NCBI RefSeq assembly: GCF_027595165.1
Contig: NZ_CP097291.1
Location: forward strand, 3,782,001 to 3,846,000
Direction: 5' to 3'
Length of the DNA: 64,000 nucleotides
From: Providencia sp. PROV188
GTDB lineage: Bacteria > Pseudomonadota > Gammaproteobacteria > Enterobacterales > Enterobacteriaceae
Both the position numbers and the translations under genes were made by a program. The notes beneath the pieces were generated by a model. That model was given only the letters and a program-made list of their open reading frames with translations. It was not told the DNA's origin and did no database searches. Below, piece by piece: positions 19,665 to 41,667 of the stretch (positions are counted from its first letter, which is position 1; each line of letters begins with the position of its first letter).

Positions 19665-19676
19665 TCTTACATTATG

Positions 19677-19715
19677 AAGGTCTTTGGTGCTTATATGCCA
19701 AAGACCTTTTTATAT
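19677..19715 (+). terminator. Terminator of cpxRA, at the border of the duplicated leader
   Basis: AAGGTCTTTGG / CCAAAGACCTT, an 11-bp stem, followed by TTTTTATATA. The right arm (from 19698) is also the left boundary of the 750-bp leader repeat, which recurs at 29839. Confidence 0.9.
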
Positions 19716-20315
19716 ATCAGCCATATATTCCTATCTTATTTCGCCGAATATTCCCTACCAAACTCAACCTGCCTGATAATTAACTTATTCATATTCACAA
19801 ACAGTGATGAAATTAGTGTCTCAAACATTTAATGATATTTGCCTATACGCGTTTACCACATATACTTGTAAGTAAGAAATAGCTCAGACAATTCTTATAA
19901 ATATTATATTTCATTGATTATATCGTTATTCGAGTAATTACTTTTTCCTACACCACACGGGCGTGATCTATTTATATATTAATAACATACATCAAGTTAC
20001 AGCTGTGATTATCATTATTTTTTATACTATCTAGCCGTATACATGCTTTTTCTTGACTATCAGATTAGCCCCTAAGTATAGATACCACTCAAACCAATAT
20101 GCCACCCAATGTGAAATTAACAATTTTTGATAGAACTATATATTAATAACTCACTTAATGGTTTCAAAAAGGTGATCAGAAGATTACAAGCAAAGTAGTG
20201 ATTTTTAGGCGTCTCACACCGATAGTCACTCCGATACTTTAGTGCTATTATTAAGGGCTTTTGATTGATTGTGCTTACGGCACGGGTCAACCTATATGGG
20301 AAGGCTATCATAAGC

Positions 20316-20373
20316 AGTGTTTATTAATTGAGTAATCATGCAAAAAATGCAGTATTTTCAATTAATAAACACT
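20316..20373 (+). promoter_or_regulatory. 16-bp perfect inverted repeat in leader A
   Basis: AGTGTTTATTAATTGA and TCAATTAATAAACACT flank a 26-nt loop, 17 bp before the JUMPstart. The arms are identical in copy B, although the loop has changed length. A role as an RNA stem-loop or a protein site is possible. Confidence 0.6.
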
Positions 20374-20390
20374 AAATTCTGAAATTCAAT

Positions 20391-20428
20391 GGCGCTCTGG
20401 GACCCGATAACCCAGTGCGGTAGCTATG
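20391..20428 (+). promoter_or_regulatory. JUMPstart with ops element, copy A
   Basis: GGCGCTCTGGGACCCGATAA leads into CCCAGTGCGGTAGCTATG, matching the JUMPstart layout. The GCGGTAGC core (in 20415-20428) is the ops signal by which RfaH joins RNA polymerase. It lies about 110 bp before ddhD, so the downstream cluster is probably RfaH-antiterminated. Confidence 0.8.
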
Positions 20429-20536
20429 CAATTTATACATTATCAACCTTTCCACATTCATACCAAGCATTACTGTTTAAGTTACCTTAAAGAAAGTAAC
20501 CACAAAATTCTTAATTAAACATTTATAAGCTTTTAT

Positions 20537-21496
20537 ATGCGATATCAAATAACAATTGAACCAGCAGGTGTTACCTATACCAGTGAAAATAATTTATTGG
20601 ATGATGCTTTAAGTCAAGCGGTTCCTATAGAATATAGCTGTAAGACTGGTGATTGTAGAACTTGTCAAGCTGAGATAATTTCAGGCACAGTTAAAAATGA
20701 ACATGATGAAATTGTATGTAATGGAAGCATTTTAACTTGCCAGTCTAAAGCACAATCTCATTTAACCCTTAAAGTTAATTATTATCCAGAATTAAAGGAT
20801 ATTAAAGTTCAAACTTTACCTTGTAAAATTTCTTCCATTAAATATGCAACAGATGATGTTATTATTTTAAAACTTCGCTTACCTCCTACTAGTAATTTTA
20901 TATATCTCCCAGGCCAATATATAGATTTAATTTATAAAAACATAAAGCGTAGCTATTCAATTTCAAATATAAACTCTAAAGAATTAGAATTGCATATTCG
21001 CTATGTACCTACAGGTGTAATGTCCGACTATATTTTCAAGCAATTTAGTGAAAATCAGCTAATGCGGATAGAAGGTCCCAAAGGGACTTTCTTTGTGAGG
21101 CAAAATTCTAAACCTCTCATATTAATAGCAACAGGTACTGGGATAGCTCCAATAAAAGCTATTTTAGAACAACTGTTAGCAATAAATGATCCTAGGCATG
21201 TATACATATATTGGGGTATGCAATATAAAAATGAATTGTATTGTACGGAAATAGAACAATACGCAAAAAAATTTCCTCATATACACTTTAACCCTGTACT
21301 TTCTAAAGAATCAGATTGGAAAGGTCATCAGGGATATGTACAAAATGCCGTCATAAAAGACTTTGATTCTTTAGCCACAATGGAAGTCTATGCTTGTGGC
21401 TCACTTAACATGATCCAAGAAGCCCAAGATCTGTTTTTTCAATACGGGCTTCCCTCTGATGCATTTCACTCAGATGCATTCACCCCTGCGAAATAA
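20537..21496 (+). CDS. ddhD: CDP-6-deoxy-delta-3,4-glucoseen reductase (E3)
   Basis: 319 residues. The N-terminal plant-type [2Fe-2S] domain has cysteines C35, C40, C43 and C68. An FAD domain follows (RSYSISN) and then an NAD(P)H domain (ATGTGIAPIKAIL). This is the reductase partner of DdhC in making CDP-3,6-dideoxyhexoses (AscD/RfbI family). It is the first gene after the JUMPstart and starts the ddhD-A-B-C order known from Yersinia pseudotuberculosis O-antigen loci. The ribosome site is weak. Base composition is AT-rich compared with cpxA. Confidence 0.88.
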   Translation: MRYQITIEPAGVTYTSENNLLDDALSQAVPIEYSCKTGDCRTCQAEIISGTVKNEHDEIVCNGSILTCQSKAQSHLTLKVNYYPELKDIKVQTLPCKISSIKYATDDVIILKLRLPPTSNFIYLPGQYIDLIYKNIKRSYSISNINSKELELHIRYVPTGVMSDYIFKQFSENQLMRIEGPKGTFFVRQNSKPLILIATGTGIAPIKAILEQLLAINDPRHVYIYWGMQYKNELYCTEIEQYAKKFPHIHFNPVLSKESDWKGHQGYVQNAVIKDFDSLATMEVYACGSLNMIQEAQDLFFQYGLPSDAFHSDAFTPAK

Positions 21497-21517
21497 TTTA
21501 ATTAGCTGGAGATATTA

Positions 21518-22291
21518 ATGAAAGCAGTAATCCTTGCGGGTGGTTTTGGCACTCGTTTAAGCGAAGAAACATCAGTTAAACCCAAGCCAATGGTTGAAAT
21601 TGGGGGAAGACCCATTCTATGGCATATTCTGAAACAATACTCAGCTCATGGTATTAATGATTTTATCATCTGCTGTGGCTATAAAGGTTATATCATAAAA
21701 GAGTATTTTGCTAATTACTTCCTACATATGTCAGACGTAACTTTCGATATGAAAAATAACCTAATGGAAGTTCATCGAAAACGAGCCGAGCCATGGACTG
21801 TCACCTTAGTTGATACTGGCGAAAACTCAATGACAGGGGGAAGGTTAAAACGTGTAGCTGATTATCTAAAAGATGAAGAAGCTTTCTGTTTCACATATGG
21901 AGATGGCGTAGCCAATATAGATATTTCCAAGAGTATTGAGTTTCATAAACAGCACGGAAAAAAAGCAACACTTACAGCGACTTTTCCTCCAGGTAGATTT
22001 GGTGCATTAGATATTAAAAATAGCCAAGTTAATAACTTTAAAGAAAAACCCAAAGGCGATGGCGCGATGATCAATGGCGGCTTTTTTGTATTGTCTCCCC
22101 AAGTGTTAAACTATATTGATGGGGATAGCTGTGTTTGGGAGCAATATCCTCTAAATCAATTAGCACTAGATGGCGAACTGATGGCCTATGAGCACCAAGG
22201 TTTTTGGCAACCAATGGACACATTACGTGACAAAATTTACTTAGAAGAATTATGGCAATCAGGCAAAGCACCTTGGAAAATTTGGGAGTAA
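21518..22291 (+). CDS. ddhA: Glucose-1-phosphate cytidylyltransferase
   Basis: 257 residues, the family's usual length. The nucleotidyltransferase signature '[20 protein letters not shown]' is at the N-terminus, followed by '[10 protein letters not shown]' and '[17 protein letters not shown]'. It makes CDP-glucose from CTP and glucose-1-phosphate, the entry step to CDP-dideoxyhexoses (RfbF). It lies 21 bp after ddhD with a GGAG ribosome site and is followed three bases later by ddhB. Confidence 0.93.
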
Positions 22292-22294
22292 TTT

Positions 22295-23377
22295 ATGAAT
22301 CCAAATTTTTGGCTTAATAAAAAAGTATTTATAACAGGTCATACCGGCTTTAAAGGATCTTGGCTGTCTCTTTGGCTAATAGAAATGGGCGCTATCGTTA
22401 AAGGGTATTCTTTAGCTCCACCAACAACACCTAGTTTATTTGAAGAAATGCAACTATGGGCAAGAATGGAATCTATAGAAGGTGATATTCGCGATTTCAT
22501 GCACTTGCGTCAAGAAATACATGAATTTAAGCCTGATATTGTTTTCCATATGGCAGCCCAGCCACTCGTTCGCCTCTCATATGATGAACCTATAGAAACA
22601 TATTCTACTAATGTAATGGGCACTGTTTATTTACTTGAAGCTGTAAAGCAGGTGGGTGGAATTAAGGCTGTTGTAAATATAACTTCTGATAAGTGCTATG
22701 AAAATAAAGAATGGGTTTGGGGATATCGTGAAAATGAGCCTATGGGTGGCTATGATCCATATAGTAACAGTAAGGGCTGTGCAGAACTTGTAGCATCATC
22801 TTATCGTCAGTCCTTTTTTAATAAAAACAAGTACCATGAGCATGGCTGTGCAATAGCATCTGTTCGCGCAGGAAATGTTATAGGTGGGGGGGATTGGGCA
22901 TTAGATAGACTGATTCCTGATATGCTAAAAGCCTTCTCATCTAATGAAAAAGTTGAAATACGCAATCCTCATTCTATTCGACCTTGGCAACACGTTTTAG
23001 AACCTCTTTCAGGTTATATTACCGTCGCAGAGCACCTCTATAACGATGGTTGTGAATATGCAGAGGGCTGGAATTTTGGTCCTAAAGATGAAGATGCTAA
23101 GTCTGTTGAGTGGATTGCAAATCAATTAAGTAATCTTTGGGGAAATAATGCTGAATGGTTCATCAGTGCTGGTGAACATCCACATGAAGCACACTATCTT
23201 AAATTAGATTGCTCCAAGGCTAAAATGCGCTTGGACTGGCAAGCTGTCTGGGATTTACAGCAAACATTAGAGAAAATTGTAAATTGGCAAAAAGCATGGC
23301 TAAACAAAGAAGATATGCATCAATATACAATTAATGAAATTAAAGAATACATGATTGCAAGAGCAGGTAATAAATAA
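22295..23377 (+). CDS. ddhB: CDP-glucose 4,6-dehydratase
   Basis: 360 residues, an extended SDR. NAD-binding '[14 protein letters not shown]' is at the N-terminus, with the catalytic YSNSK motif mid-protein and '[19 protein letters not shown]' typical of RfbG. It converts CDP-glucose to CDP-4-keto-6-deoxyglucose. It starts three bases after ddhA and its TAA overlaps the ddhC ATG by one base, indicating tight translational coupling. Confidence 0.93.
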
Positions 23378-24690
23378 TGTCAAAAGAACAAATAAGAAAG
23401 CAAATAGCAGAACTTGTACAACAATATGCAAATCTAGAATATGCTCCAAAGGAGTTCATTGGTGGTAAAAGTGTAGTACCACCTTCAGGAAAAGTTCTCG
23501 GTGCGAAAGAGTTACAACTGATGGTAGAGGCTTCTTTAGATGGTTGGCTTACAACAGGTCGCTTTAATGATGCTTTTGAAAAAAAACTTGCAGAATACCT
23601 TGGAGTACCATACCTATTAACTACAACTTCAGGTTCTTCTGCTAATTTACTCGCACTTACGGCATTAACATCACCTAAACTCGGCTCAAGACAACTTAAG
23701 CCTGGTGATGAAGTCATTACGGTTGCTGCTGGCTTTCCGACAACAGTTAATCCAACAATTCAAAATGGCTTGATTCCTGTTTTTGTTGATGTCGATATTC
23801 CAACATATCAAATTAAATCTGAAATGATAGAAGCTGCCGTCTCTGACAAAACAAAAGCTATCATGGTTGCTCATACCTTAGGCAACACATTTGATTTAAC
23901 CGAAGCGCGCCGCATCGCTGACAAATATAATCTCTGGCTAATAGAAGATTGCTGTGATGCATTAGGTTCCACCTATAATGGACAAATGGTTGGAACTTTT
24001 GGAGATATTGCTACAGTAAGTTTTTACCCTGCCCATCATATAACTATGGGGGAAGGTGGAGCTGTATTTACCAAAAGTAAAGAACTACGCACTTTAATTG
24101 AGTCATTTAGAGATTGGGGGCGTGATTGCTATTGTGCACCAGGTTGCGATAATACCTGCGGTAAACGTTTTGACCAAAAATTAGGGTCATTACCTGAAGG
24201 TTATGACCACAAATATACGTACTCACATCTAGGCTACAATTTAAAAATTACTGATATGCAAGCCGCTTGTGGCTTAGCCCAAATGGAATCAGTAGAGACA
24301 TTTGTCCAAGCCCGTAAAGATAACTTTGAATATTTAAAAGCTGGGCTAGTGAATTGCGAAGAGTTTATCATTTTGCCAGAAGCAACTGAAAATTCAGATC
24401 CTTCTTGGTTTGGTTTCCCAATAACTATAAAAGAAGAAAGCGGAATTGCTCGTGTAGATTTACTTAAATTTATGGATCAGTACAAAATTGGTACTCGCCT
24501 ATTATTCGCAGGTAACTTAACGCGTCAACCTTACTTTGAAAATGTTAAATATCGAATTGTTGGCGAGTTAACCAATACAGATATTATTATGAATAATACT
24601 TTCTGGATCGGTGTCTACCCTGGCTTAACTAAAGAGCATTTAGATTTCGTTATTGAGAAATTTGAAGAGTTTTTCGGTGTAAACTTTTAA
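23377..24690 (+). CDS. ddhC: CDP-4-keto-6-deoxy-D-glucose 3-dehydrase (E1)
   Basis: 437 residues. It belongs to the aspartate-aminotransferase fold but carries His at the position of the PLP lysine ([15 protein letters not shown]220), the hallmark of the E1 dehydrase (RfbH/AscC). The cluster [14 protein letters not shown] supplies cysteines for the [2Fe-2S] centre. With DdhD it removes the C3 hydroxyl to give CDP-3,6-dideoxy-4-keto-hexose. It overlaps ddhB by one base. A perfect inverted repeat follows its stop. Confidence 0.94.
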
Positions 24691-24698
24691 ATCAGAAA

Positions 24699-24728
24699 AA
24701 GCCAATTTTTTAAATTGGCTTTAATATA
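24699..24728 (+). terminator. Terminator-like hairpin inside the ddh operon
   Basis: AAGCCAATTT / AAATTGGCTT, a perfect 10-bp stem with a 3-nt TTT loop, 8 bp after the ddhC stop and followed by TAATAT. The T-run is short, so it may be a partial terminator that RfaH-modified polymerase would read through. Confidence 0.55.
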
Positions 24729-24733
24729 CCATT

Positions 24734-25273
24734 ATGCAAATTAAAGAATTGAACATCTCAGGATGTTTCCTAGTTAATCTCCCCTCATTCAAAGATGAGA
24801 GAGGGGGATTTGTAAAAACATTTAATATTGATACTCTCACTGGTAGCCCTCTAGAGTATTTTAATTTGAAAGAAGAGTTTTACTCTACTTCAAAAAAAAA
24901 TGTCTTACGTGGGTTACATTTTCAAAAGCCTCCCTCCGCACATAATAAAATCGTAACTTGCACTGATGGAAAAGTTTTAGATTTTTTCGTTGATTTGAGA
25001 AAAACCTCCAATACGTATGGAAAACATATAGCCCTTACATTAGACAGTGAGAATCCTCAATTATTATATTTACCTAAAGGGTTAGCACATGGTTTTTTAA
25101 CTCTCAGTGAAAATGCAACTTTGTTGTATAAAACAGATTTTGTATATTCACCAAAAGATGATCAAGGAATACTTTGGTCAAGTATCGGATTAGAACTCCC
25201 AAATAATGAGTTCATAATCTCAGAGAGAGATAATAACTTTTCTCCCTTAGCTGACTATAAAAGCCCATTCTAA
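24734..25273 (+). CDS. RmlC-family epimerase, AscE-like
   Basis: 179 residues of the dTDP-4-dehydrorhamnose 3,5-epimerase family: 'DERGGFVKTF' at the N-terminus, 'NVLRGLHFQ' with the catalytic His, 'GKVLDFFVDLR' and 'LPKGLAHGFLTLSE'. No dTDP-rhamnose genes are nearby. Placed directly after ddhDABC, it most likely acts as the C5 epimerase AscE, turning CDP-3,6-dideoxy-D-hexulose into the L-form on the way to CDP-ascarylose. That assignment is from context; sequence alone only gives the epimerase family. Its stop is immediately followed by the next ATG. Confidence 0.7.
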   Translation: MQIKELNISGCFLVNLPSFKDERGGFVKTFNIDTLTGSPLEYFNLKEEFYSTSKKNVLRGLHFQKPPSAHNKIVTCTDGKVLDFFVDLRKTSNTYGKHIALTLDSENPQLLYLPKGLAHGFLTLSENATLLYKTDFVYSPKDDQGILWSSIGLELPNNEFIISERDNNFSPLADYKSPF

Positions 25274-26140
25274 ATGAAAATACTAGTAACCGGTGCATCA
25301 GGTTTTATTGGAAGCCAATTCTGTAAATATCATTCATCAGTATTTGAACCTATTGCTTTGGTTCGCAACTCTAGTTTACCTATTGAAAATACACGATACT
25401 ATGATGGAAGCTATGATTCACTTTGCCAGGCTTTAGAGGATATTGATATAGTATTACATCTAGCAACATACTATACCGCTGAACATAAACCTGATGATAT
25501 TCATAAAATTATTGATGCAAATATCAGTTTTGGTGCTCACTTATTAGAAGCAATGAAAGAAAGAAAAGTTAAAAAGCTTATAAATATTGGCACTACATGG
25601 CAATATTATATGGGTGATGACCATCGGTATGCTAATTTATATGCTGCATCTAAGCAGGCATTTCAAGAATTTGTAAACTGGTATGTAGACTCGCAAGGCT
25701 TCAGTGTAATTAATTTGCATCTAAATGACACATATGGCGAAGAAGATACACGAAAAAAATTGCTCCAATTATTGATTGAATGTGCTGTGACTGGGCGTGC
25801 ACTAGATATGAGTCCAGGAGAGCAACAATTTGAAACCTGCTATATACGTGATGTTATACAAGGTATAGAAATAGCCTTAGAAATAATTAATGATAGCCCA
25901 TCCCACTATAATGAGACATATTCCTTGTTATCCGGAAATAATCATACATTAAAGAAATTGGTATCAATAGTTGAATCAATAACAAATGAAAAAATCTCTA
26001 TTCATTGGGGAGCTAGGCCCTATAGAAATAGAGAAGTTATGGAGATACCTTATAACTGCTATAAAATTTTACCGGGATGGCAGCCGAAAATATCAATATA
26101 CGACGGCATTGAAATTTTATTTAAAAAATATAAGGTATAA
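25274..26140 (+). CDS. SDR reductase, AscF-like (CDP-3,6-dideoxyhexulose reductase)
   Basis: 288 residues, an extended SDR with 'TGASGFIGSQFCKYH' at the N-terminus, a 'GTTWQYY' active-site strand and YAASK as the catalytic YxxxK. The end ('LPGWQPKISIYDGIEIL') resembles abequose, paratose and ascarylose synthases. Following ddhDABC plus an epimerase, it should reduce C4 of the CDP-hexulose to yield the final CDP-3,6-dideoxyhexose; with an AscE partner the expected product is CDP-L-ascarylose. An abequose-type product cannot be excluded by eye. It starts at the base after the epimerase stop. Confidence 0.65.
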   Translation: MKILVTGASGFIGSQFCKYHSSVFEPIALVRNSSLPIENTRYYDGSYDSLCQALEDIDIVLHLATYYTAEHKPDDIHKIIDANISFGAHLLEAMKERKVKKLINIGTTWQYYMGDDHRYANLYAASKQAFQEFVNWYVDSQGFSVINLHLNDTYGEEDTRKKLLQLLIECAVTGRALDMSPGEQQFETCYIRDVIQGIEIALEIINDSPSHYNETYSLLSGNNHTLKKLVSIVESITNEKISIHWGARPYRNREVMEIPYNCYKILPGWQPKISIYDGIEILFKKYKV

Positions 26141-26142
26141 AA

Positions 26143-27240
26143 ATGATTTTTGTTTCTGGAAATGTTAATAGCTCATATAGAGCACAAAATATTATCAAGC
26201 TAATCACTGATAATAACATTGAGTTTTCACATATTCCGTTTTTTTTAACAATAGGTAAAAATTATTTCATAAAAAGAGCGTTTGCTATTATTTCTATGTT
26301 TTTTCTCATTCCCGCAAGAGTTTTGCTTTTAGTTATGAGTAAAAAAATAGTTATATTACCAATGAATCATACTGTTTTTTCTCTATTTGATACTATCATT
26401 GGTAAGATATTCAACAAAGAAATAATTCTTGAGTTTTATATCAGTACATATGATACAGCTGTCAATGACCGCGGTGAAATAGCTCCGAAATCTAAAAAAG
26501 CCAAAAGGTTATTGTTCATAGAAAAAAAATTAACTCAATATGCAACAAATATAGTATGTCTTAATGAAGCAGAGAAAAATTATTATTTAAAATTTATGCA
26601 CTCATCTGCAAAGAGTAAAGTAATATCAGTACCTTTAGTTATTGATAGAATAAAATCAAGAAATCAAATAAAAATGAGCGCAAAAAAATTTCAATTATGC
26701 TGGTGGGGTAATTATATACCATTACATGGTTTAGAAAAAATAATAAAGGCAATCAAACTTATCGATGGATATGACATAACTTTTTACATCTTTGGTAACA
26801 ATGAGGAAAAATCCAAACCTTACCAAGATTTAGCAAATGAGCTAGAAATAAATAATAAAATTATATTTAACAATGATTTCACATTTAAAAATGGCAAACT
26901 TCCTGAATTTTTAATTAATAACTGTGATTTAGCACTTGGTAATTTTGGATCAAGTGAGAAAGCAACAACAGTTCTAGTGAATAAAGTCGTTGATGCAATC
27001 GCTTTAAACCTCCCATGTCTGACGATGCAAACAAAAGCTTGCGATGAGTTTTTTATTGCAAATGAAAATATTTTCCTTACCAAGGAAAATCCGACACCTG
27101 AAGATATAGCGAATGCTATAATCGAAATTATAGATAATAAAGATAATTTATTTGAAATAAGTAAAAATGGACATGATATCTATAATCATTATTTTAGCCC
27201 TGAAGCTTTCTCTAAAAAATACTTACCCTTAATTAAATAA
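26143..27240 (+). CDS. GT-B fold glycosyltransferase (GT4-like)
   Basis: 365 residues. The C-terminal half carries 'WWGNYIPLHGLEKIIKAIKL', typical of GT4 donor-binding domains, and a 'FGSSEKATTVLVNKVVDAIA' segment in place of a classic EX7E. There is a hydrophobic stretch near residues 45-65. It is the only glycosyltransferase in the first half of the O-antigen locus, so it may transfer the dideoxyhexose, though that is inference. It starts 3 bp after the reductase stop and overlaps wzx by one base (TAATG). Confidence 0.7.
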   Translation: MIFVSGNVNSSYRAQNIIKLITDNNIEFSHIPFFLTIGKNYFIKRAFAIISMFFLIPARVLLLVMSKKIVILPMNHTVFSLFDTIIGKIFNKEIILEFYISTYDTAVNDRGEIAPKSKKAKRLLFIEKKLTQYATNIVCLNEAEKNYYLKFMHSSAKSKVISVPLVIDRIKSRNQIKMSAKKFQLCWWGNYIPLHGLEKIIKAIKLIDGYDITFYIFGNNEEKSKPYQDLANELEINNKIIFNNDFTFKNGKLPEFLINNCDLALGNFGSSEKATTVLVNKVVDAIALNLPCLTMQTKACDEFFIANENIFLTKENPTPEDIANAIIEIIDNKDNLFEISKNGHDIYNHYFSPEAFSKKYLPLIK

Positions 27241-28670
27241 TGTCTAATCCTTTATATTCAGCAATAAAACGAAGTATCACGGGTAAATTGCTAACATACT
27301 TGATTCAGTTCTTTGCACTTGCTATTTATGCTCGTATATTTACCCCTGAACAATTTGGTATTATCGCATCCATTCAAGTTTTTGTGATTTTTTTTCAATT
27401 ACTTGCCGATATAGGTATTGGCCCTGCCATTATTAACGAAGATACATTCACAAAAAATCAACGTAATGGAATATTTACAACAACATTGATACTTGGCATT
27501 ATTCTTGCAATCTTATTCTATTGTTTTTCCTACTTTCTGACATATTTTTATGATGGCTATGACTATCAAAATATAGCCATCATTGTAAGCATTGGAATTA
27601 TATTTAACTCATTAAATATAATTCCATTAACAGCATTAAATAAAGATGCCAATTTTATAAAAATAGCAAAAATAGATTGCGTAACAGAATTAATTAGTTT
27701 ATCCATCGTATACTACTTTAGTCTTTTAGAATTTGGTGCTATTGCACTAGCAACAAGGTCACTATCTCAAGGGGTAATAAAGTTTATTTTAACTTGGTTT
27801 TCATCAGCTAAAACCTCATTAGGACGACCATATTTTGGCTCTGAACTATACCATATAAAAAAAATTGTTGGCTTTGCATCCTATCAATTCTCATTTAATT
27901 TAATTAACTACTTCTCACGAAATTTAGATAAAATTCTCATCGGAAAATATATTGGAACTTCAGCATTAGGTGTCTATGAAAAGTCCTATCAACTAATGCA
28001 ATATCCTCTTATGCTGACTACCTTCGCCATGACACCAGCAATCCAGCCAGTTTTAACAAAATTACGGTCTAATGTTGATCTAATTGTTGAAGAGCATAAT
28101 AAATTAGCTTCTAGACTATTATTTATATCGATATTAATTAGCTTTTTTATTTATATAAATAGTGAGAACATTGTAATTTTTATATTTGGTAACCAATGGG
28201 AAAGAGTAATTCCTTTAATAAAATTATTTTCATTTATGATTCCAATTCAATCAATATTATCAACTTCAGGTTCATTCTATCAAGTAATGAACAAGCCTCA
28301 GTTGCTTTTTATTTCTGGGCTTTTATCTGCAACACTAAATATCATTGCAATTTGTTTTGGCGTTTATTTTAACGAGTTAAGATTTATAGCCATTGGATTA
28401 ATAATATCTTTCTCCGCTAATTTCCTCCAATGTTACTTTATTATGTTTAAGTATTGTTTCAAAAGAAACATTTATTTATTCTATAAGAAATTAATGAAAG
28501 CTATTTTCATTGCATCAATGATGTGTGCTTTATATATGGTATTGTTCATTATTATGAAAAGTTACCTTTCCACAGAGATAGTGATCAATATATTACAAAA
28601 TTTATTACTAACTGCTCCAAGTTTTGGAATTTTCTACATATTAAATAGAAAACTTAATTTCGATATTTAG
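27240..28670 (+). CDS. wzx: O-unit flippase Wzx
   Basis: 476 residues with about 12 hydrophobic helices. It belongs to the polysaccharide flippase (MOP/RfbX) superfamily: an N-terminal 'YARIFTPEQFGIIASIQVF' segment and 'NYFSRNLDKILIGKYIGTSALGVYEKSYQL' are typical. It moves undecaprenol-linked O-units across the inner membrane. It is the only Wzx-like protein in the window, while the only Wzy lies in the second half of the locus. It is strongly AT-rich. It ends 22 bp before the ugd remnant. Confidence 0.88.
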   Translation: MSNPLYSAIKRSITGKLLTYLIQFFALAIYARIFTPEQFGIIASIQVFVIFFQLLADIGIGPAIINEDTFTKNQRNGIFTTTLILGIILAILFYCFSYFLTYFYDGYDYQNIAIIVSIGIIFNSLNIIPLTALNKDANFIKIAKIDCVTELISLSIVYYFSLLEFGAIALATRSLSQGVIKFILTWFSSAKTSLGRPYFGSELYHIKKIVGFASYQFSFNLINYFSRNLDKILIGKYIGTSALGVYEKSYQLMQYPLMLTTFAMTPAIQPVLTKLRSNVDLIVEEHNKLASRLLFISILISFFIYINSENIVIFIFGNQWERVIPLIKLFSFMIPIQSILSTSGSFYQVMNKPQLLFISGLLSATLNIIAICFGVYFNELRFIAIGLIISFSANFLQCYFIMFKYCFKRNIYLFYKKLMKAIFIASMMCALYMVLFIIMKSYLSTEIVINILQNLLLTAPSFGIFYILNRKLNFDI

Positions 28671-28691
28671 TTAATTATAAAGAGACCTGCC

Positions 28692-28967
28692 ATGAAAATA
28701 GCAATCGCAGGTACCGGCTATGTCGGTCTATCTAACGCCATGTTACTGCCCCCAAACCATGAAGTGGTGGCGATCGATATCAATCCTGAAAAAGTGGCGA
28801 TGCTTAACAATAAGCAATCCCCGATTATTGATACTGAAATCGAACAGTTTCTAACGGAAAAACAACTTAATTTCCGGCACCCCTAGATAAAGTCGAAGCC
28901 TATTTTGTCATTGTAGTGACTCGAACAGACTACGCCTCAAAAAGCAACTACTTCAACACCAATTCTG
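28692..28967 (+). pseudogene. ugd: 5' fragment of ugd (UDP-glucose 6-dehydrogenase)
   Basis: The first about 180 bases closely match the start of intact ugd at 35759 (same '[19 protein letters not shown]' opening). The frame is then broken after 'EKQLNF', a short deletion removes the region corresponding to 'YTGAQYV', and similarity stops at 28967 ('AACTACTTCAACACCAATTC'). About 880 bases of the gene are missing. It marks an old right-hand border of an O-antigen block, since intact ugd borders the second block in the same way. Confidence 0.9.
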
Positions 28968-29012
28968 AAGTAACCCTCAATAGTTGAACAACCAGTTAAT
29001 GGGGGTCTTTTT

Positions 29013-29480
29013 ATGTCAAAACACAGTCGTAATTCAAAAATCATTATTGCGAATCAATGTTTGTCTGGGGAATCTTCTCGCTCTCTTTCAGCAAAATATT
29101 CAATATCTCACCAGCAAATTCAATATTGGTCTAAAGTCATTGCCATTCATGACAATAATGCTTTCTTACCTACGCCACATTTACGCTGCGTTACAGCCAG
29201 ATTTCAAGCGTTAAAACTTATATGGACAAATGGCTGGTCTATCACTCACACTAGCTCTGTACTGAATTTAATCTACCCTGGAACCCTATTTGTTTGGCTT
29301 AATCGATATAATGAGAAGGGATTTTCAGGACTTGAGTGTGAACCAAGGAAGACTACCAATGAAACACTCATGCATAACACCAATTCGCTCGGATGATGAA
29401 AAAACACTTGAAGAACTCAAAGAAGAGGTGGCTTATTTACGTGCGGAAAATGCCGTTCTAAAAAGTTGGAAGCGCTGAAA
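29013..29480 (+). pseudogene. IS3-family OrfA remnant
   Basis: A helix-turn-helix protein: 'SGESSRSLSAKYSISHQQIQYW' and a second HTH-like unit 'WSITHTSSVLNLIYPGTLFVWL' leading to 'YNEKGFSGL', as in IS150-group OrfA. The frame ends at 29396, but the expected leucine-zipper tail 'EELKEEVAYLRAENAVLK' continues in another frame to 29478. A frameshift near 29385 therefore broke it. Confidence 0.7.
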
Positions 29481-29489
29481 CAGATGAAT

Positions 29490-29838
29490 AAATAAGCAAA
29501 GAAAAAACATTCGCTGTTTTAGCTCTCAAAAATAAATTTTCCTTAAAGTGTTTACTTCATGTACTAAATCTGGCAAAAAACGTTTTTATTATCACGTTAG
29601 GATTATTAAAAAGCCGGAAATCAACGAGAAAGAGTTGGCGCGAATTGAGACTATTTATCATGAACATAAACGTCGCTATGGTTACTGGCGTATTTATTTA
29701 ACATTGAAAAATATGGGGGGTAATACTCAATAACAAGACAGTTCAGCGGTTAATGAAGCAGCTTAATTGAAAATCGACAGTCAGATTGAAAAGGTATCGC
29801 TCATATCGTGGTTATATCGGCAGAACAGTGCCCATGTA
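29490..29838 (+). pseudogene. IS3-family OrfB (transposase) remnant, truncated
   Basis: Pieces in successive frames resemble an IS3 OrfB N-terminus: 'KTFAVLALKNKFSLKCLL', then 'KKRFYYHVRIIKKPEINEKE' and 'IETIYHEHKRRYGYWRI', then 'NNKTVQRLMKQLN' and 'KRYRSYRG'. At least two frameshifts and one stop are present. The sequence ends at the leader repeat before any DDE catalytic residues. Confidence 0.75.
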
Positions 29839-30455
29839 CCAAAGGCCTTTTTATATATCAGCCATATATTCCTATCTTATTTCGCCCAATATTCCTACCA
29901 AATTCAATCTGACTGATAATTAACTTATTCATATTCAAAAATAGTGATGAAATTAGTGTCTCAAAAATTAGCCGATATTTTCCTATACGGGTTTACCACA
30001 TATACTTGTAAGTAAGAAACAGCTAAGACAATTCTTATAAATATTACATTTCATTGATTACACCGTTATTCGAGTAATTACCTATTCCTACGCTACACAT
30101 GCGGATTCTATTTATATATTAATAACATACATCAAGTTACTACTGTGATCATCATTATTTTTTATACTATCTAGTCGTATTTATGTTTTTTCTTGACTAT
30201 CAAGTTACCCACTAAGTATAGATATCACCCAAACCAATATGCTATACAATGTTAAATTAACAATTTTCGATAGAACTATACACGAAGAAGTCATTTGATG
30301 ATTTCAAGAAAGTGAGCAGAAGATTACAGGCAAAGTAGTGATTTTTAGGCGCCTCACACTGATAGTCACCCTTATACTTTAGTGCTATTATTAAGGGCTT
30401 TTGATTGATTGTGCTTACGGCATGATTCAACCGATAAGGGAAGACCATCATAAGC

Positions 30456-30504
30456 AGTGTTTATTAATTGAGCAAAAATGCAGTATTTTCAATTAATAAA
30501 CACT
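30456..30504 (+). promoter_or_regulatory. 16-bp perfect inverted repeat in leader B
   Basis: The same arms as in leader A (AGTGTTTATTAATTGA and TCAATTAATAAACACT), but with a 17-nt loop. Arm identity across diverged copies suggests selection on the paired structure. Confidence 0.6.
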
Positions 30505-30521
30505 AAATTCTGAAATTCAAT

Positions 30522-30559
30522 GGCGCTCTGGGACCTGATAACCCAGTGCGGTAGCTATG
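30522..30559 (+). promoter_or_regulatory. JUMPstart with ops element, copy B
   Basis: GGCGCTCTGGGACCTGATAA leads into CCCAGTGCGGTAGCTATG, differing from copy A by one base. The ops core is within 30546-30559, about 45 bp before the acyltransferase gene. It should let RfaH act on the second block independently. Confidence 0.8.
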
Positions 30560-30603
30560 GGTGCGACTAAATATGACATTATCAATCGACATTGTGGTCA
30601 TCA

Positions 30604-31176
30604 ATGGATTTTATTAACATGAAAAAAATTCTATTAAAAATAAAAAAATCACTTTTATTAAAGCTATCAATTATAGTCAATATAAAAAAAATAAATAATA
30701 AGATCAAAAAAGAAATTTATTTTCTTGATAAAAAAATATTAGAGTATAAAAATGTTTTTATTGGCCATGACACTATCATTTATGACTCTTCGTTCTCATA
30801 TAGTTCTAAAGGTGACTTCTTTTATATTGGAAATAATTGTACGATTACTGGTGCAACCTTACTCGGACACGATGCATCTCCAACAATATTCATGAACGAA
30901 CTAAGAATTAAAAAAAACATATGGGAGCATGGTTCAAGATGCTCTTATCGGAAACCTATTAATATCGGAAATAATGTATTTATTGGTGTAGGAGCTATTA
31001 TCTTGCCCGGAATAAATATTGGAGACAATGTAATTATTGCAGCTGGTAGCATTGTAACTCGAAATATTGAAAGCAATGGAGTTTATGCAGGCAATCCGGC
31101 AAAGAAAATAAAATCAATTGATGATTACATTGAGAAGTATAAGGCACTATATAAATATGAGCGTGAAAATTTCTAG
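30604..31176 (+). CDS. Left-handed beta-helix acetyltransferase
   Basis: About 190 residues with hexapeptide repeats (for example 'IGNNCTITGATLLG', 'INIGNNVFIGVGAIILPG', 'INIGDNVIIAAGSIVTRNI') and the C-terminal 'GVYAGNPAKKIK' hallmark of WbbJ/NodL-type O-acetyltransferases. It probably acetylates a sugar of the O-unit or of a nucleotide sugar. The start is uncertain: ATG 30604, ATG 30619 and a TTG at 30592 are all possible and none has a strong ribosome site. It is the first gene after JUMPstart B and overlaps wzy by 20 bases. Confidence 0.78.
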   Translation: MDFINMKKILLKIKKSLLLKLSIIVNIKKINNKIKKEIYFLDKKILEYKNVFIGHDTIIYDSSFSYSSKGDFFYIGNNCTITGATLLGHDASPTIFMNELRIKKNIWEHGSRCSYRKPINIGNNVFIGVGAIILPGINIGDNVIIAAGSIVTRNIESNGVYAGNPAKKIKSIDDYIEKYKALYKYERENF

Positions 31177-32401
31177 TTTCAATATTATAATATATTTTTT
31201 CGCATTAACTGGTCCATTATCAACAACCCCCTTAGATATATATAATTTAGGTATAACTGCGTTTCTATTCTTAATACTCACCATTGCCTTAATAAAAAAT
31301 AATGGTGAGATAAAGATTAATTCCATATCAGCAACTTTTATCTTATCTTATTTTTCATTCATTATATTAAGTATATTTAGCCTCTGTACATCGGTTACAG
31401 AAATCACATCCACATTTTATTTAACTACTTTTTTTTCTCGTTTAGCAACAGCGTCTCTGTGCTTGGTTATCTTAATTGAGATTTCCTCGTGGATAAATAC
31501 TCAACATGGAGATAACATATCGACCTATCTAAAATTATGTTTCTTTAGCACTTTAGTTTTCCTACTTTTCTCTCTATATCAAATGATCGCCTTTGAGTAT
31601 AATCTCCCTTTCATTGAAACGCGTTCTAACGTTTACGGAGCATCTTATGAAACAAAAAAAGAACTTGGATTTCGCCTTACATCTATAGCTAGAGAACCTA
31701 ATTTTTACGCCCCATTATTAATAGAATCGATATTATTATCACTTGCATTAACTAGGAAAAAATTTTTATTTTTATTTATTCCGGTAACTCTTTTTTTAAT
31801 ACATAAAACGCATTCTACTGGAGCTTACCTACATTTATTTTTGATATTAACAGCATTTATCTTAATTAATAGAAAGTCGACTATTACAATACCCTTTTTA
31901 ATATTAATATCATTAGTTATGGTGTTTTTACTCAGCTATGATTTAAATAACTCATTCTTCATTGAAAAACTGAAAGACGAAATTAGTGGAAATTCAAGTC
32001 GAAGCTACATATATCTAACTATACTATCTGAATTCTTTAAATCAGACACTCTGCACTTATTATTTGGTTACGGAATAAATACGCTTCAGCTATTCAATGA
32101 ACTATCTCAACAAAAAAGCCATCTAGATTTTTCTGTTTCCAATAATTTTTATATTGATATTTTATGGGACTCTGGAATAGTAGGATTTATTTTATTTGTA
32201 AGTTATCTTATTTTTATTTTCATAAAGCTAAAAAAAATCTCAAAAAAAAATAGACATGGATTACTCGCATTTTTATTTTTCATTAACATAATTATAACTT
32301 CATTATATCGTTCTGAATATACCACAACACACTTTGTGTGGACTTCTATTATTATGCTGGCTTTATATAAATTATCATTAATTCATGGTGATGAAAAATG
32401 A
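31157..32401 (+). CDS. wzy: O-antigen polymerase Wzy
   Basis: About 414 residues with 10-12 hydrophobic segments and a large periplasmic loop mid-protein ('IETRSNVYGASYETKKELGFRLTS' region, then 'REPNFYAPLL'). The later 'LFGYGINTLQLFNE...' and 'SNNFYIDILWDSGIVGFILF' stretches are typical of Wzy/O-antigen ligase superfamily proteins. Its place inside the O-antigen block favours Wzy; the WaaL-like ligase is at 61.8 kb. ATG 31157 was chosen since the longer frame (31118) runs deep into the upstream gene. It overlaps the next gene by ATGA. Confidence 0.82.
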   Translation: MSVKISSFNIIIYFFALTGPLSTTPLDIYNLGITAFLFLILTIALIKNNGEIKINSISATFILSYFSFIILSIFSLCTSVTEITSTFYLTTFFSRLATASLCLVILIEISSWINTQHGDNISTYLKLCFFSTLVFLLFSLYQMIAFEYNLPFIETRSNVYGASYETKKELGFRLTSIAREPNFYAPLLIESILLSLALTRKKFLFLFIPVTLFLIHKTHSTGAYLHLFLILTAFILINRKSTITIPFLILISLVMVFLLSYDLNNSFFIEKLKDEISGNSSRSYIYLTILSEFFKSDTLHLLFGYGINTLQLFNELSQQKSHLDFSVSNNFYIDILWDSGIVGFILFVSYLIFIFIKLKKISKKNRHGLLAFLFFINIIITSLYRSEYTTTHFVWTSIIMLALYKLSLIHGDEK

Positions 32402-33201
32402 AATTAAGCATGTTATATGCAACTTTAGATGATCGCATTATTTCATTAATAGAGAATTTACCGAGTAAACATTCCTGTACTGAAATAATAATAATCCACC
32501 AAGCCAAAAGTATCGATAAATACAATAGTAACCTCGAGAAAATAGCAAAAAGAAATGATATTTACTATTATCATTCTAATAATAATGGAGTAGCCAGAAG
32601 TAGAAACCTTGCAATTGAAAAAGCCACCGGAGATATAATATTATTTTGTGATGATGACATTACTTATATGGAAGGATTCCAAGATAAAGTCATTCAAAGT
32701 TTTTCAGATCATAATAATACTGAGTTTATTACATTTGCATATAAAAACACTGTTAATGGTCCATGGCTAAAACGATTCAAACTATCAACATATAGGCATA
32801 CTAATAGAACAATTTTAGGTGTAGGAACCATTCAAGTAGCATGTCGCCGAGAAACAGTAATACAATATAATATAAAATTTCCTGAAGATATGGGGGCAGG
32901 AACTACATATTTTCTATGTGATGAGCCAGTTTTTCTTTCTAAATTTTTGAAACATGATCTACCCGGAATATATATACCTTATGTTTTATGCTTTCATCCC
33001 GAAGAGTCTAGCGGCTCAACATTCAATCACATAAATGCATTTAATTCAAGGATACTATGTTTTACTCGAATTTTTGGCGATCTTAAGGGTAGAATATACT
33101 ACCTTGCTTATATACTAAAAAATATCAGAAAATACAATTCAAGTAATCTTTTTTTTGAATCTATAAAACTAGCATTTACCAACCCATCAAAAGATAAATA
33201 A
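32398..33201 (+). CDS. Family 2-like glycosyltransferase (GT-A)
   Basis: 267 residues. 'NNNGVARSRNLAIEKATGDIIL' leads into 'FCDDDI', the acidic metal/nucleotide-binding motif of GT2 enzymes. A 'CDEPVFLSKFLK' segment further on probably carries the acceptor-side acid. It should add one sugar to the undecaprenol-linked unit at the cytoplasmic face. It is translationally coupled to wzy (ATGA overlap) and followed without a gap by the next transferase. Linkage and donor are not predictable here. Confidence 0.75.
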   Translation: MKLSMLYATLDDRIISLIENLPSKHSCTEIIIIHQAKSIDKYNSNLEKIAKRNDIYYYHSNNNGVARSRNLAIEKATGDIILFCDDDITYMEGFQDKVIQSFSDHNNTEFITFAYKNTVNGPWLKRFKLSTYRHTNRTILGVGTIQVACRRETVIQYNIKFPEDMGAGTTYFLCDEPVFLSKFLKHDLPGIYIPYVLCFHPEESSGSTFNHINAFNSRILCFTRIFGDLKGRIYYLAYILKNIRKYNSSNLFFESIKLAFTNPSKDK

Positions 33202-34329
33202 ATGAAAATATTATTATTAAATACATCATTTTATCCTCAAATAGGTGGGGTTGAAAATTCATTAAGAAGTATTAGCGATGTTCTATCAAAAGAAGGTCAT
33301 TCAATTACAATTATTTCTAGTGACAGCGGAGATCACTCGCTCCCTGATAAAGAATACCTATATGGTGCTACACTATTCCGCTACCGCCATAGTGGCTTTA
33401 TCCGTGGTTTCTTTAATCTACTGAAAAAGTTAAAGAATATAAGAAAGAATGATTATGATATTATTATTAGTAGAAATATGCTTACAACCTTAGCACTTAT
33501 ACTACTAAGATTTAAACAATTTCATTATATTGTTCCTGGAATTCATAAATATCAAAATAATATTTCAAATAAAAAAAATCAATTTAGATTTAAATTAGAA
33601 TGTATGATTGATAGATTTTGTCTAACTTTCAGCCCTAATGTTTATGTTTTTAGTAGGAATATGGAAACACAAGTTTTTAACCTTACAAAACGAAATGATA
33701 TAAAAAATATAGTTCCTGGCATTGATACGATTCGATTTAATCCAGCAAATTTAATAGAAAAAAATAAATTAAGAGATGCGTATGGGCTACCAAAGAACAA
33801 AACAATAATTTTAGGATTAGGCCGTTTTTCGTGTGTAAAAAACTACTCAACTCTAATAGAATGCATGCCTCATGTAGGAAATGAATATATTTTATTATTA
33901 GTTGGAGATGGTGATGAAAAGAAAAACTATGAAGTAATGATAGAAAAATTAAAAATATCAAACCGTGTATTTATTTTTAATAAAACATTAGAACCAGAAA
34001 TTTTCTATAAACTGAGTGATTTATTTTGTCTTTCATCAACTTATGAACCTTTTGGTCAAGTTCTATTAGAAGCTATTTCTTGTAATTTACATTTAGTTGC
34101 ATTAAACAATACATCCCCAAATATAAATACTGCCACAAATGAAATTTTTAATAAATACCCTGGGCTTGTAAATTATGTTTCTGAGAATACACCTCGTGCT
34201 TTTGCACATACTATCAATTCGTTAAAGTTGGATAATACTGCTGCACACCAAATTGAGCGTGAAAATTTCTTGAAAAATCATTCATGGCTTCAACTGATTA
34301 ACGAAATTAGAAATAACAGTAAAAGGTAA
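33202..34329 (+). CDS. Family 4 glycosyltransferase (GT-B)
   Basis: 375 residues. The N-terminal 'FYPQIGGVENSLRSISDVL' is the standard GT4 acceptor-domain start. The C-terminal half has 'LGLGRFSCVKNYSTLIECM' and 'STYEPFGQVLLEAISC', which contains the EPFGQVLLE form of the EX7E motif. A retaining transferase acting on the O-unit is likely. It begins at the base after the upstream stop codon. Confidence 0.85.
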   Translation: MKILLLNTSFYPQIGGVENSLRSISDVLSKEGHSITIISSDSGDHSLPDKEYLYGATLFRYRHSGFIRGFFNLLKKLKNIRKNDYDIIISRNMLTTLALILLRFKQFHYIVPGIHKYQNNISNKKNQFRFKLECMIDRFCLTFSPNVYVFSRNMETQVFNLTKRNDIKNIVPGIDTIRFNPANLIEKNKLRDAYGLPKNKTIILGLGRFSCVKNYSTLIECMPHVGNEYILLLVGDGDEKKNYEVMIEKLKISNRVFIFNKTLEPEIFYKLSDLFCLSSTYEPFGQVLLEAISCNLHLVALNNTSPNINTATNEIFNKYPGLVNYVSENTPRAFAHTINSLKLDNTAAHQIERENFLKNHSWLQLINEIRNNSKR

Positions 34330-34339
34330 TGAATCAAAG

Positions 34340-35071
34340 ATGTTAGATTTAAAATTCAACATTAAATTTTTAACTATCCATGATAAATGGCTATACAAAA
34401 AATCAAGCTTTTGTGACTTATTTAAATTCGTAGCTTATAAAGGTGGTAATTTAAATAAGAGACCGTTCCTGTTTATTACGAGAAAGAAGAGAAGCGTGAG
34501 AAATGACTTAAGTTTAAGTAATGAATCGCTATGGCTCAACCTACGTAAAAACACTCGTTACGATATTAATAAGGCTAAAGAACTTGATACTAAATTTAAT
34601 TTAATTAACTGCATTGACAGTAAGGAAAACAATAATAGTGAAATTGTAAACTTCATATCTGATTATAATTTTTTCGTGAAAAATAAAGAATTACCCATTC
34701 CATTATTAACAGACAAAAGAATACTAAAATACAGAAAAAATCTAGTTATAAGCAAAATAAATCATAATAATACCTGGCTAGCCCAGCATGCATATCTGGT
34801 CATTGATAACTACGCTGAATTGTTATACTCCATAGTCAATAGTCAAGAAGATAACAAATTAACTGGATTAGCAAATAAGCATCTACATTGGAATGACTTT
34901 CTTTCACTAAAAAATATAGGTATAAGTTTATATGACTGGGGGGGTATTACTATTGATGGTTCATTAGCCGGAATTAGAAACTTCAAACTATCATTTGGCG
35001 GCGATGATGTAACTTATAACATATATAACTCACCACTATATCAACTGGCTCTTAATATTAAAAAAAGTTAA
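34340..35071 (+). CDS. FemAB-like GNAT-fold transferase
   Basis: 243 residues. 'WLNLRKNTRYDINKAKE' and the later 'YDWGGI' and 'GIRNFKLSFGGD' pieces are the conserved marks of FemAB/MurM-related GNAT proteins, which often transfer amino acids or acyl groups. In an O-antigen block it may add an amino acid or acyl group to a sugar; Providencia and Proteus O-antigens are known to carry amino-acid amides of uronic acids, and ugd lies nearby. The substrate is inference. Confidence 0.65.
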   Translation: MLDLKFNIKFLTIHDKWLYKKSSFCDLFKFVAYKGGNLNKRPFLFITRKKRSVRNDLSLSNESLWLNLRKNTRYDINKAKELDTKFNLINCIDSKENNNSEIVNFISDYNFFVKNKELPIPLLTDKRILKYRKNLVISKINHNNTWLAQHAYLVIDNYAELLYSIVNSQEDNKLTGLANKHLHWNDFLSLKNIGISLYDWGGITIDGSLAGIRNFKLSFGGDDVTYNIYNSPLYQLALNIKKS

Positions 35072-35075
35072 CTCT

Positions 35076-35753
35076 ATGTTTATTATAAATGCTGATGATT
35101 ATGGTCATTCTGAACGAGTCAACAATGCTATTATCCACTGTTTTAATAAAAGATTGATTGACTCTGCGACACTGATGGCTAATATGCCCGGAACTGAGCA
35201 TGCTATTAAGAATAATGATAATTTCAGTTTGGGATGCCATCTGAATTTAATGGAAGGAAAACCTTTAAATTCAAACTGTTTAAACTATCGTGAATTAACC
35301 GATAGTAATGGAGAATTGAATTTAAACTTATCAAGAAACTCATTTTTTGCAAATAAATGTATAATTAATCAAATTAAGATAGAACTTGATCATCAAATAA
35401 GTTTTCTATTCGATCATAAAATTAAACTAACACATCTTGACTCCCATCATCACACACATACAATACCTATTATTTACAGAATAGTTCACGAACTAGCTTT
35501 AAAATACAAGCTAAGAATAAGACTACCAAGATATACTGGGTCACATAAATTACATAAAGTTCTTTATAAAAAAATATTATGTATTTATATGAAAAAAAAC
35601 GGATTAAACTTCACTGATAAATTTATTAATTATAATGAAATGGATTCATTTAAAAACAATAAAGAAATGATTGAAGTTATGGTTCACCCAGATCTAAAAG
35701 ATAATAACACTATATATTGTAATACTACTAATTTAATTATCGATAGGCTTTAA
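35076..35753 (+). CDS. YdjC/ChbG-like carbohydrate deacetylase
   Basis: 225 residues. '[17 protein letters not shown]' at the N-terminus contains the Asp-Asp metal/catalytic pair, '[12 protein letters not shown]' follows, and '[10 protein letters not shown]' supplies the histidines of this metal-dependent deacetylase fold. ChbG removes an acetyl group from chitooligosaccharides. Here a role in de-N-acetylating an O-unit sugar is plausible but unproven. It is shorter than typical ChbG (about 250). It lies 4 bp after the FemAB-like gene and 5 bp before ugd. Confidence 0.75.
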
Positions 35754-35758
35754 AATTC

Positions 35759-36925
35759 ATGAAAATAGCAATCGCAGGTACCGGCTACGTCGGTCTGTCT
35801 AACGCCATGTTACTGTCCCAACACCACGAAGTGGTCGCGGTCGATATCATTCCTGAAAAAGTGGCGATGCTTAATAATAAGCAATCCCCGATTATCGATA
35901 CCGAAATCGAGCAGTTTCTAACGGAAAAACAACTCAATTTCCGTGCAACCGAAGATAAAGTCGAAGCCTATACGGGCGCGCAATACGTGATTGTGGCGAC
36001 CCCGACAGACTACGACCCAAAAACCAACTACTTCAACACTAATTCTGTGGAATCCGTTATTCACGATGTGAACAAACTGAACCCGGAAGCGACCATTATC
36101 GTCAAGTCCACCATTCCTGTGGGCTTTACGGAGCGTCTGCGTGAAGAGTTTGGTTACACCAACGTGATTTTCTCCCCAGAATTCTTACGTGAAGGTCGCG
36201 CGCTGTGGGATAACCTGTACCCGTCCCGTATTGTGGTGGGTGAGCGCTCTGAACGCGCACAAATTTTCGCTGACTTGTTGTTAGAAGGCGCGATTAAGAA
36301 AGATGTGCCAGTGCTGTTTACTGACGGTACTGAAGCGGAAGCGGTTAAATTATTCGCCAACACCTTCTTAGCGATGCGTGTCGCATACTTCAATGAATTA
36401 GACACTTACGCAGAAAGCCGTGGCTTGAATGCGCGTCAAATCATCGAAGGGGTTTCTTTAGACCCACGAATCGGCAGCCACTACAATAACCCATCATTCG
36501 GTTATGGCGGCTACTGCTTACCGAAAGACACCAAGCAGTTGCTGGCGAACTACGACGATGTGCCAAATAACCTGATTAACGCGATTGTGGAATCTAACCG
36601 CACGCGTAAAGACTTTATCTCTGATGCGATTATCGCTAAAGCACCACGTAAAGTCGGTGTGTATCGCTTAGTGATGAAAGCGGGCTCCGATAACTTCCGT
36701 GCCTCAGCCGTTCAAGGCGTAATGAAGCGTATCAAAGCCAAAGGGATTGAAGTGGTGGTTTACGAACCCGTACTGAAAGAAGATGAATTCTTCCGCTCAA
36801 AAGTTATCCGTGATTTAGAAACATTCAAAGCAGAAAGCGACATTATTCTGGCAAACCGAATGGTGCTTGAGCTGGATGATGTAGCGGATAAAGTTTATAC
36901 CCGTGACCTGTTTGGTAATGATTGA
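35759..36925 (+). CDS. ugd: UDP-glucose 6-dehydrogenase
   Basis: 388 residues, the full enterobacterial length. '[14 protein letters not shown]' is the NAD-binding loop, 'FSPEFLREG' is conserved, and '[16 protein letters not shown]' has the catalytic cysteine. It oxidises UDP-glucose to UDP-glucuronate, a precursor for O-antigen uronic acids. Base composition rises sharply here towards the housekeeping level. A decayed copy of its 5' end sits at 28692, marking the border of the first O-antigen block. Confidence 0.97.
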
Positions 36926-41184: not shown

Positions 41185-41206
41185 TCTTATTTTTAATCAA
41201 ATACTT

Positions 41207-41635: not shown

Positions 41636-41667
41636 ACTCTATTTAAACTTATTTAAAAACTAACTCT

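Follow-up and report, generated by a model that had tools for sequence, protein, structure and literature searches.

A proposed hybrid O-antigen locus in Providencia sp. PROV188 with a second leader kept at its seam

The window analysed here, a stretch of 64,000 nucleotides from Providencia sp. PROV188 (positions 3782001-3846000 of the larger contig, 3.88 Mb, in a genome of 2 contigs and 4.02 Mb with a completeness of 99.9), contains beside cpxA two blocks of polysaccharide genes, each headed by its own leader that ends in a JUMPstart/ops-like element. The flippase gene wzx is found only in block 1 and the polymerase gene wzy only in block 2, so that the blocks most likely function as one hybrid Wzx/Wzy-dependent locus for an O-antigen (or a related surface polysaccharide) built from parts of two clusters, a reading to which we assign a probability of about 0.7. 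The stretch between the blocks, which consists of a ugd start, a truncated insertion sequence (IS) of the IS3 type and the second leader, is an old scar. The mosaic is real, and a single hybrid in which the seam is preserved describes it better than two clusters do.

Division of the flippase and polymerase between the blocks

Protein families were assigned using Pfam and NCBIfam models, each with its own cut-off, and RNA elements using Rfam, with its gathering score as reference. Across the genome, the flippase families PF13440 and PF01943 match two places each, namely, the wzx of block 1 and WzxE of the enterobacterial common antigen (ECA), and PF04932 matches two places as well, the wzy of block 2 and a WaaL/RfaL gene (61774-63000 of the window). 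The single place given by TIGR04370 is a weak match close to wzxE, presumably WzyE. By these models and by hydrophobic stretches, no wzy candidate was found in block 1 and no wzx in block 2, so that neither is a complete cluster; the set of genes by which a Wzx/Wzy cluster is recognized (wzx and wzy together with genes for glycosyltransferases and nucleotide sugars, all at one locus) is present in the two blocks jointly and in neither alone. In the five nearest single-leader Providencia clusters, from each of which two chosen proteins with multiple transmembrane segments were scanned, all five gave a flippase-family match (under the Pfam cut-off in G023 and G022) along with another multi-transmembrane protein, in line with one wzx and one wzy per cluster. 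The initial annotation had described two O-antigen clusters, which is not upheld given that each block is without an essential gene and that the genome-wide searches gave, apart from WzxE, a single flippase and, apart from WaaL, a single polymerase of the O-antigen type. These counts also argue against the alternative that each block directs a separate polysaccharide: the leader and JUMPstart-like element before each block would fit such an arrangement, but with the two assembly genes divided between the blocks and a single glycosyltransferase in block 1, we consider it improbable.

In the proposed hybrid, block 1 would make a 3,6-dideoxyhexose (DDH), attach it with its one glycosyltransferase and flip the unit with a DDH-type Wzx, and block 2, the 3' part of another cluster, would contribute the main-chain glycosyltransferases, the supply of UDP-glucuronic acid and Wzy. 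The sugar of block 1 is probably a CDP-linked DDH, most likely L-ascarylose. Of the CDP-ascarylose gene set, ddhABC are recognized by curated models, ddhD by domains only (none of the NCBIfam models listed for it, the best 25 of 30 matches, scored above cut-off), and the epimerase falls just under the cut-off of the RmlC model TIGR01221 (147.6 bits against 155.75). The assignment is only probable because the relatives of the reductase include, in addition to a CDP-3,6-dideoxy-D-glycero-L-glycero-4-hexulose-4-reductase (48%), proteins named CDP-abequose synthase (52%) and paratose synthase (41%).

Block 2 looks like the 3' part of a cluster that has lost company with its wzx-bearing 5' part. 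Its counterparts in Shewanella oncorhynchi (L092) form one cluster, in the order wzx, acetyltransferase, wzy, glycosyltransferases GT4, GT2 and GT2, and ugd, with identities of 53% for the acetyltransferase, 31% for wzy, 34% for GT4, 41% and 38% for the two GT2 proteins and 72% for ugd; the L092 wzx was named from its sequence and position, not from a family scan.

The two leaders and the scar between the blocks

The leaders form a direct repeat of ~740 bp (E 1.6e-277), with 88.0% identity over the aligned part and a longest exact common stretch of 62 bp. The initial annotation recognized this repeat, with starts at 19698 and 29839; the homology begins somewhat earlier, at 19687 and 29828, within the cpxA terminator hairpin, and ends directly after ops (20428 and 30559). 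Past ops, the similarity is gone, and the same divergence point is seen in the five relatives whose leader is full-length. No terminator was called at the start of leader 2. Both JUMPstart elements match Rfam RF01707 over its full length with bit scores (Table 1) under the gathering score of 35, and the search at gathering threshold made no JUMPstart call in either leader; the same JUMPstart/ops element is present in 7 aligned leaders. Just upstream of it, both leaders contain an AT-rich stem-loop of 15-20 bp (20316-20373 and 30456-30503), the arms of which are largely conserved across 7 aligned Providencia leaders and which matched no Rfam family at the gathering score; the stretches holding this stem-loop together with the JUMPstart hairpin have fold z scores of -4.9 in leader 1 and -3.7 in leader 2.

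The tree of the leaders is star-like with the sister species, and leaders 1 and 2 do not group. They are 88.0% identical to each other compared with 86.7-90.4% to the leaders of the four nearest relatives, so that, as estimated from these alignments, the divergence between them is as large as that between leaders of sister species. A recent duplication of the leader is thereby ruled out, and the two donor lineages or old event suggested in the initial annotation agree with this result. Private changes number 34 in leader 2, 14 in leader 1, 26 in the leader of genome G002 and 23 in that of G003. The core of leader 2 has 7 private changes in 227 sites and the ugd remnant 20 in 259, a difference (Fisher p 0.03) that is only suggestive of constraint on the core; with all of leader 2 taken (34 in 730), p is 0.08.

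The scar is ~1.9 kb long and includes, as had been noted from the outset, a decayed ugd start and a wrecked IS3 element. The ugd remnant is 89.5-90.9% identical to the intact ugd of the same genome and to the three nearest intact ugd genes elsewhere. Its 20 private changes, counted over 259 sites at which the four intact copies are identical, are spread over the codon positions as 5/8/7; those of the genome's own intact ugd are distributed as 0/0/3. Because dS between this genome and its sister species is 0.25-0.33 (cpxA, galE, ugd), the 7.7% of neutral change in the remnant would correspond, as a rough estimate, to half the time since the sister species parted.

The IS remnant begins within ugd, with its left end at 28966, and breaks off inside the second reading frame when ~863 of ~1,429 bp have been passed. 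The break is joined within the cpxA terminator at the start of leader 2, with microhomology of a few bases at most. Joining mediated by an IS end was rejected because the IS is cut internally. This surviving junction does not show the homologous recombination through leader and ugd that had been proposed, although a homologous event may have come before it. Apparently near-complete copies (~1.4 kb) of the element are present in other genomes (L077 in G003, L079 in G011 and L080 in G010); the PROV188 genome yielded no further copy, and none of the 4 plasmid records matched covers 80% of it.

The history that we infer starts with two leader-headed units that came to lie in tandem, an intermediate that, like the identity of the sugar and the joint function of the blocks, is reconstructed from these remains. 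An IS would then have landed in the first ugd and, most likely, taken part in a deletion with its endpoint in the terminator that precedes leader 2, with leader 2 presumably still serving as promoter and loading site for RfaH. Alternatively, blocks 1 and 2 might always have been one ordinary DDH-type cluster, with the ugd'-IS-leader piece pasted in later. Once the scar is removed, the gene order is indeed conventional (DDH genes, glycosyltransferase, wzx, acetyltransferase, wzy, glycosyltransferases, ugd), but the piece itself runs from a ugd start to the DNA that immediately precedes a leader, which is the order of one unit's end and the next unit's start, and the wzx and wzy relatives in P. 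rettgeri are listed with different longest contigs, a point of little weight; we regard this alternative as unlikely. Still far less plausible is an assembly artefact, for which we found no evidence: the repeats are only 88-90% identical and lie within a 3.88-Mb contig, the scar is decayed sequence, and the reductase of block 1 and the wzy of block 2 are listed on 5 contigs each.

In alignments inspected by eye, the scar shows, over 1,140 bp, 5 gaps that shift the reading frame, one of them in ugd and four in the IS. At this rate, ~35 frameshifts would be expected in the coding DNA of block 1 and ~23 in that of block 2, and none is seen, all 14 reading frames (8 in block 1, from the ddhD-like gene to wzx, and 6 in block 2, from the acetyltransferase to the deacetylase) being open; ugd alone (1 gap in 277 bp) yields a similar expectation. 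Because the scar decayed while all these reading frames stayed open, both blocks appear to be maintained by selection. That one of the blocks is a dead relic, the strain being rough or its sugar truncated, could be suspected from the clear decay of the scar itself but is hard to reconcile with the open frames and the expected numbers of frameshifts, and we consider it very improbable.

Table 1 Features of the cpxA-trmL locus in the window
Feature	Position	Strand	Basis and remarks
cpxA terminator hairpin	19676..19709	+	14-pair stem and T run; fold -18.8 kcal/mol, z -5.25
Leader 1	19687..20428	+	88% identity to leader 2; starts within cpxA terminator
JUMPstart/ops element 1	20390..20427	+	RF01707 model positions 1-38/38, 19.0 bits
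ddhD-like (Fer2/FAD/NAD reductase, E3)	20537..21496	+	Pfam; name ddhD from gene order
ddhA, glucose-1-phosphate cytidylyltransferase	21518..22291	+	TIGR02623 483 bits, cut-off 300
ddhB, CDP-glucose 4,6-dehydratase	22295..23377	+	TIGR02622 526.5 bits, cut-off 278
ddhC, CDP-4-keto-6-deoxyglucose 3-dehydrase (E1)	23377..24690	+	NF011936 770 bits; best PDB matches 3bcx, 3bb8
ascE-like epimerase (RmlC family)	24734..25273	+	PF00908; best PDB match 5buv 'putative epimerase'
ascF-like 4-reductase (short-chain dehydrogenase/reductase, SDR)	25274..26140	+	PF01370 and named relatives
Glycosyltransferase group 1	26143..27240	+	PF00534; sole glycosyltransferase of block 1
wzx flippase	27240..28670	+	PF13440 192 bits; ~11 hydrophobic stretches
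ugd remnant (5' end only)	28692..28965	+	89.5% to own intact ugd; 1-bp and 12-bp deletions
IS3-type remnant	28966..29828	+	left end and ~60% of element; 78% to ~1,429-bp G003 copy
Leader 2	29828..30559	+	left arm of cpxA terminator gone; weak fold at start, z -1.43
JUMPstart/ops element 2	30521..30558	+	RF01707 1-38/38, 22.2 bits
Hexapeptide acetyltransferase	30604..31176	+	Pfam; 53% to L092 counterpart
wzy polymerase	31157..32401	+	PF04932 34 bits, cut-off 31.7; ~9 hydrophobic stretches; start as in P0001
Glycosyltransferase family 2	32398..33201	+	PF00535
Glycosyltransferase group 1	33202..34329	+	PF00534
243-aa protein	34340..35071	+	no Pfam or NCBIfam match
YdjC/ChbG-like deacetylase	35076..35753	+	PF04794; NF002559 under cut-off
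Intact ugd	35759..36925	+	Pfam; 93.3-94.5% DNA identity to ugd of G023, G003, G002
Glycosyltransferase family 2 after ugd	36903..37673	+	PF00535
SDR epimerase	37689..38636	+	98% in G022
galE	38687..39712	+	Pfam and relatives' counterparts
wza-wzb-wzc	40036..43749	+	named by sequence and order; no family scan

Relatives of the two blocks

Among 24 Providencia genomes, one per species and PROV188 included, the search with leader 1 found a match in every genome, one each in the 23 others, as the initial annotation had anticipated. The match covers the full leader span in 5 of these 23 and only the 3' end (the last 115-222 bases) in 18, where a strongly diverged second copy could escape the search; PROV188 itself has two full-length copies and one short inverted match. 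No strain with just one of the blocks was seen in this sample. In the cpxA-trmL stretches of the 23 relatives (partial for some, with 6.3 kb for G007, 8 kb for G016 and several ending before trmL), tblastn at 1e-5, with the best match per place listed, gave no relative of the block 1 wzx and ddhD or the block 2 wzy.

In a wider search for donors among 345 genomes of the order, the block 1 wzx was matched at E <= 1e-60 in 16, PROV188 included, two of the relatives showing 54-56% identity and 13 showing 35-39%, and the block 2 wzy at E <= 1e-30 in PROV188 only. Within the 20-kb surroundings of the two best wzx relatives, no ddhA or ddhD was listed, and the matches to ddhB and ddhC were weak (30% or less). 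A further search of genome contigs returned nothing with wzx and a single wzy relative, the 31% protein of S. oncorhynchi L092. In the protein collection, the contigs with the block 2 wzy and those with the block 1 reductase number 5 each, and in both cases the contig of the window is the longest. The closest named relative of the wzx comes from P. alcalifaciens (96%), which suggests that PROV188 belongs to the group of that species. The P. rettgeri relatives of wzx are listed with longest contigs of 255360 and 86902, and those of wzy with 30858 and 244957. One P. rettgeri wzx (66%) and one reductase (81%) share the longest contig of 86,902, so that a block-1-like set probably exists in a strain of this species.

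Several observations weigh against a hybrid of two origins maintained as a single locus. The wzx list of the protein collection is without a 100% entry, the best being 96% in P. alcalifaciens, on 12 contigs; set beside the 5 contigs each for the reductase and wzy, this does not point to a clear set of strains with both blocks. The case for two origins rests on the divergence of the leaders, the ugd remnant and the differing longest contigs of the wzx and wzy relatives. The decay rate of the scar derives from few events, and individual gaps also occur in 2 of the 4 other IS copies (L079 and L080), so that some of those in the scar could predate the insertion. TIGR04370 overlooked the block 2 wzy, and a second polymerase could be overlooked likewise. 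In the scan of the five nearest single-leader Providencia clusters, two of the five gave a polymerase-family match (under the cut-off in G023), which leaves the presumed Wzy of three relatives without a Pfam match; Wzy proteins are diverse. Moreover, according to the part of PMC8649690 consulted, Salmonella is known to have a wzy that lies away from the cluster, and the same is suspected for Morganella; WzxE, too, could in principle flip the units of block 2.

Expression, stability and comparison with known clusters

The initial annotation had the second block closed by an intact ugd. The gene is intact, but the locus does not end there: it extends past 36925 up to 44372, through a glycosyltransferase, an epimerase, galE and wza-wzb-wzc to trmL. 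The presence of wza-wzb-wzc leaves open a capsule form of the polymer. Of the stretches from the 23 other Providencia genomes, 18 gave a match to these genes (wza at least); no match was obtained in the cpxA-trmL interval of G022 (L032/L033) and G014 (L040/L041), and the stretches of G007, G009 and G016 end too early to judge.

The scan for terminators between the blocks detected no strong one, the only terminator-like site being a weak one of 5 pairs (29674-29690; 1.2 expected by chance). An extended -10 promoter-like site occupies the same place in both leaders (20223-20251 and 30363-30391); overall, such sites are no commoner than in shuffled sequence. RfaH is present, with two TIGR01955 matches above the NCBIfam cut-off, at G000:C1:608773-609240 and G000:C2:116406-116873, the second of these on the much smaller contig, probably a plasmid.

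The exact stretches in common reach 62 bp in the leaders and 30 bp in the ugd copies. Recombination between the leaders would remove 10,141 bp including wzx, and recombination between the ugd copies would remove 7,067 bp including wzy. Neither deletion would leave the hybrid functional, a possible reason for the persistence of the repeats. A tentative extension of this argument, to which we give clearly less than even odds, is that the locus is a self-locked operon with two leaders, in which the repeats persist as either loss would destroy polymer synthesis; transcription would be halted before wzy by the untranslated ugd'-IS scar of ~1.1 kb if leader 2 had not been kept as a second promoter and loading site for RfaH.

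O-antigen clusters are thought to evolve by module swapping, with the intermediates usually erased, and here the join is still readable. The locus offers a direct test of whether a tandem can be locked in place by complementary gene loss and of the role of a second RfaH loading site in a polysaccharide operon. The literature search, which extended to titles and abstract openings and to few subscription papers, turned up no report of a Providencia locus with two leaders, and ascarylose and Providencia appeared together only in a nematode review.

The DDH O-antigen of Yersinia pseudotuberculosis is encoded in one contiguous cluster, which is not known to have an internal leader. Block 1 shares with the DDH clusters of this species the order ddhDABC, sugar-specific genes, DDH transferase and wzx, an order described for both Salmonella and Yersinia in the section of PMC3715488 consulted. 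PMC6436433, as far as covered, ties the Yersinia Wzx types to the terminal DDH over different main chains and reports that they are inefficient without it; given this inefficiency, the DDH genes may have moved together with their wzx, which would have made the other wzx dispensable. The site beside cpxA is that of the O-antigen clusters of Proteus and Morganella (PMC5560731 and PMC8649690, in part) and of the 23 other Providencia genomes; the latter have one leader match each, where PROV188 has two full-length copies. All 60 Proteus clusters carry wzx and wzy (PMC5560731), and two Morganella clusters are without an assigned wzy (PMC8649690), according to the same portions of these papers. PMC1847822 mentions one JUMPstart site in the portion consulted and is not a precedent for two.

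The closest parallel is Salmonella enterica group D2, in which, according to the relevant passages of PMC3715488, a DDH-pathway 5' part from one cluster meets a 3' part with wzy from another, and the remnant of an H-repeat marks the place where they join. In PROV188, both parts and an IS remnant are present, and their probable different origins are backed by the divergence of the leaders, with no parental strains seen among the genomes compared. Unlike in D2, the sugar is probably ascarylose, the site is the cpxA-trmL interval, and the junction keeps a decayed ugd start and a second leader with its JUMPstart. Hybrid clusters are already known, and this one is distinguished by the second leader that it has kept.

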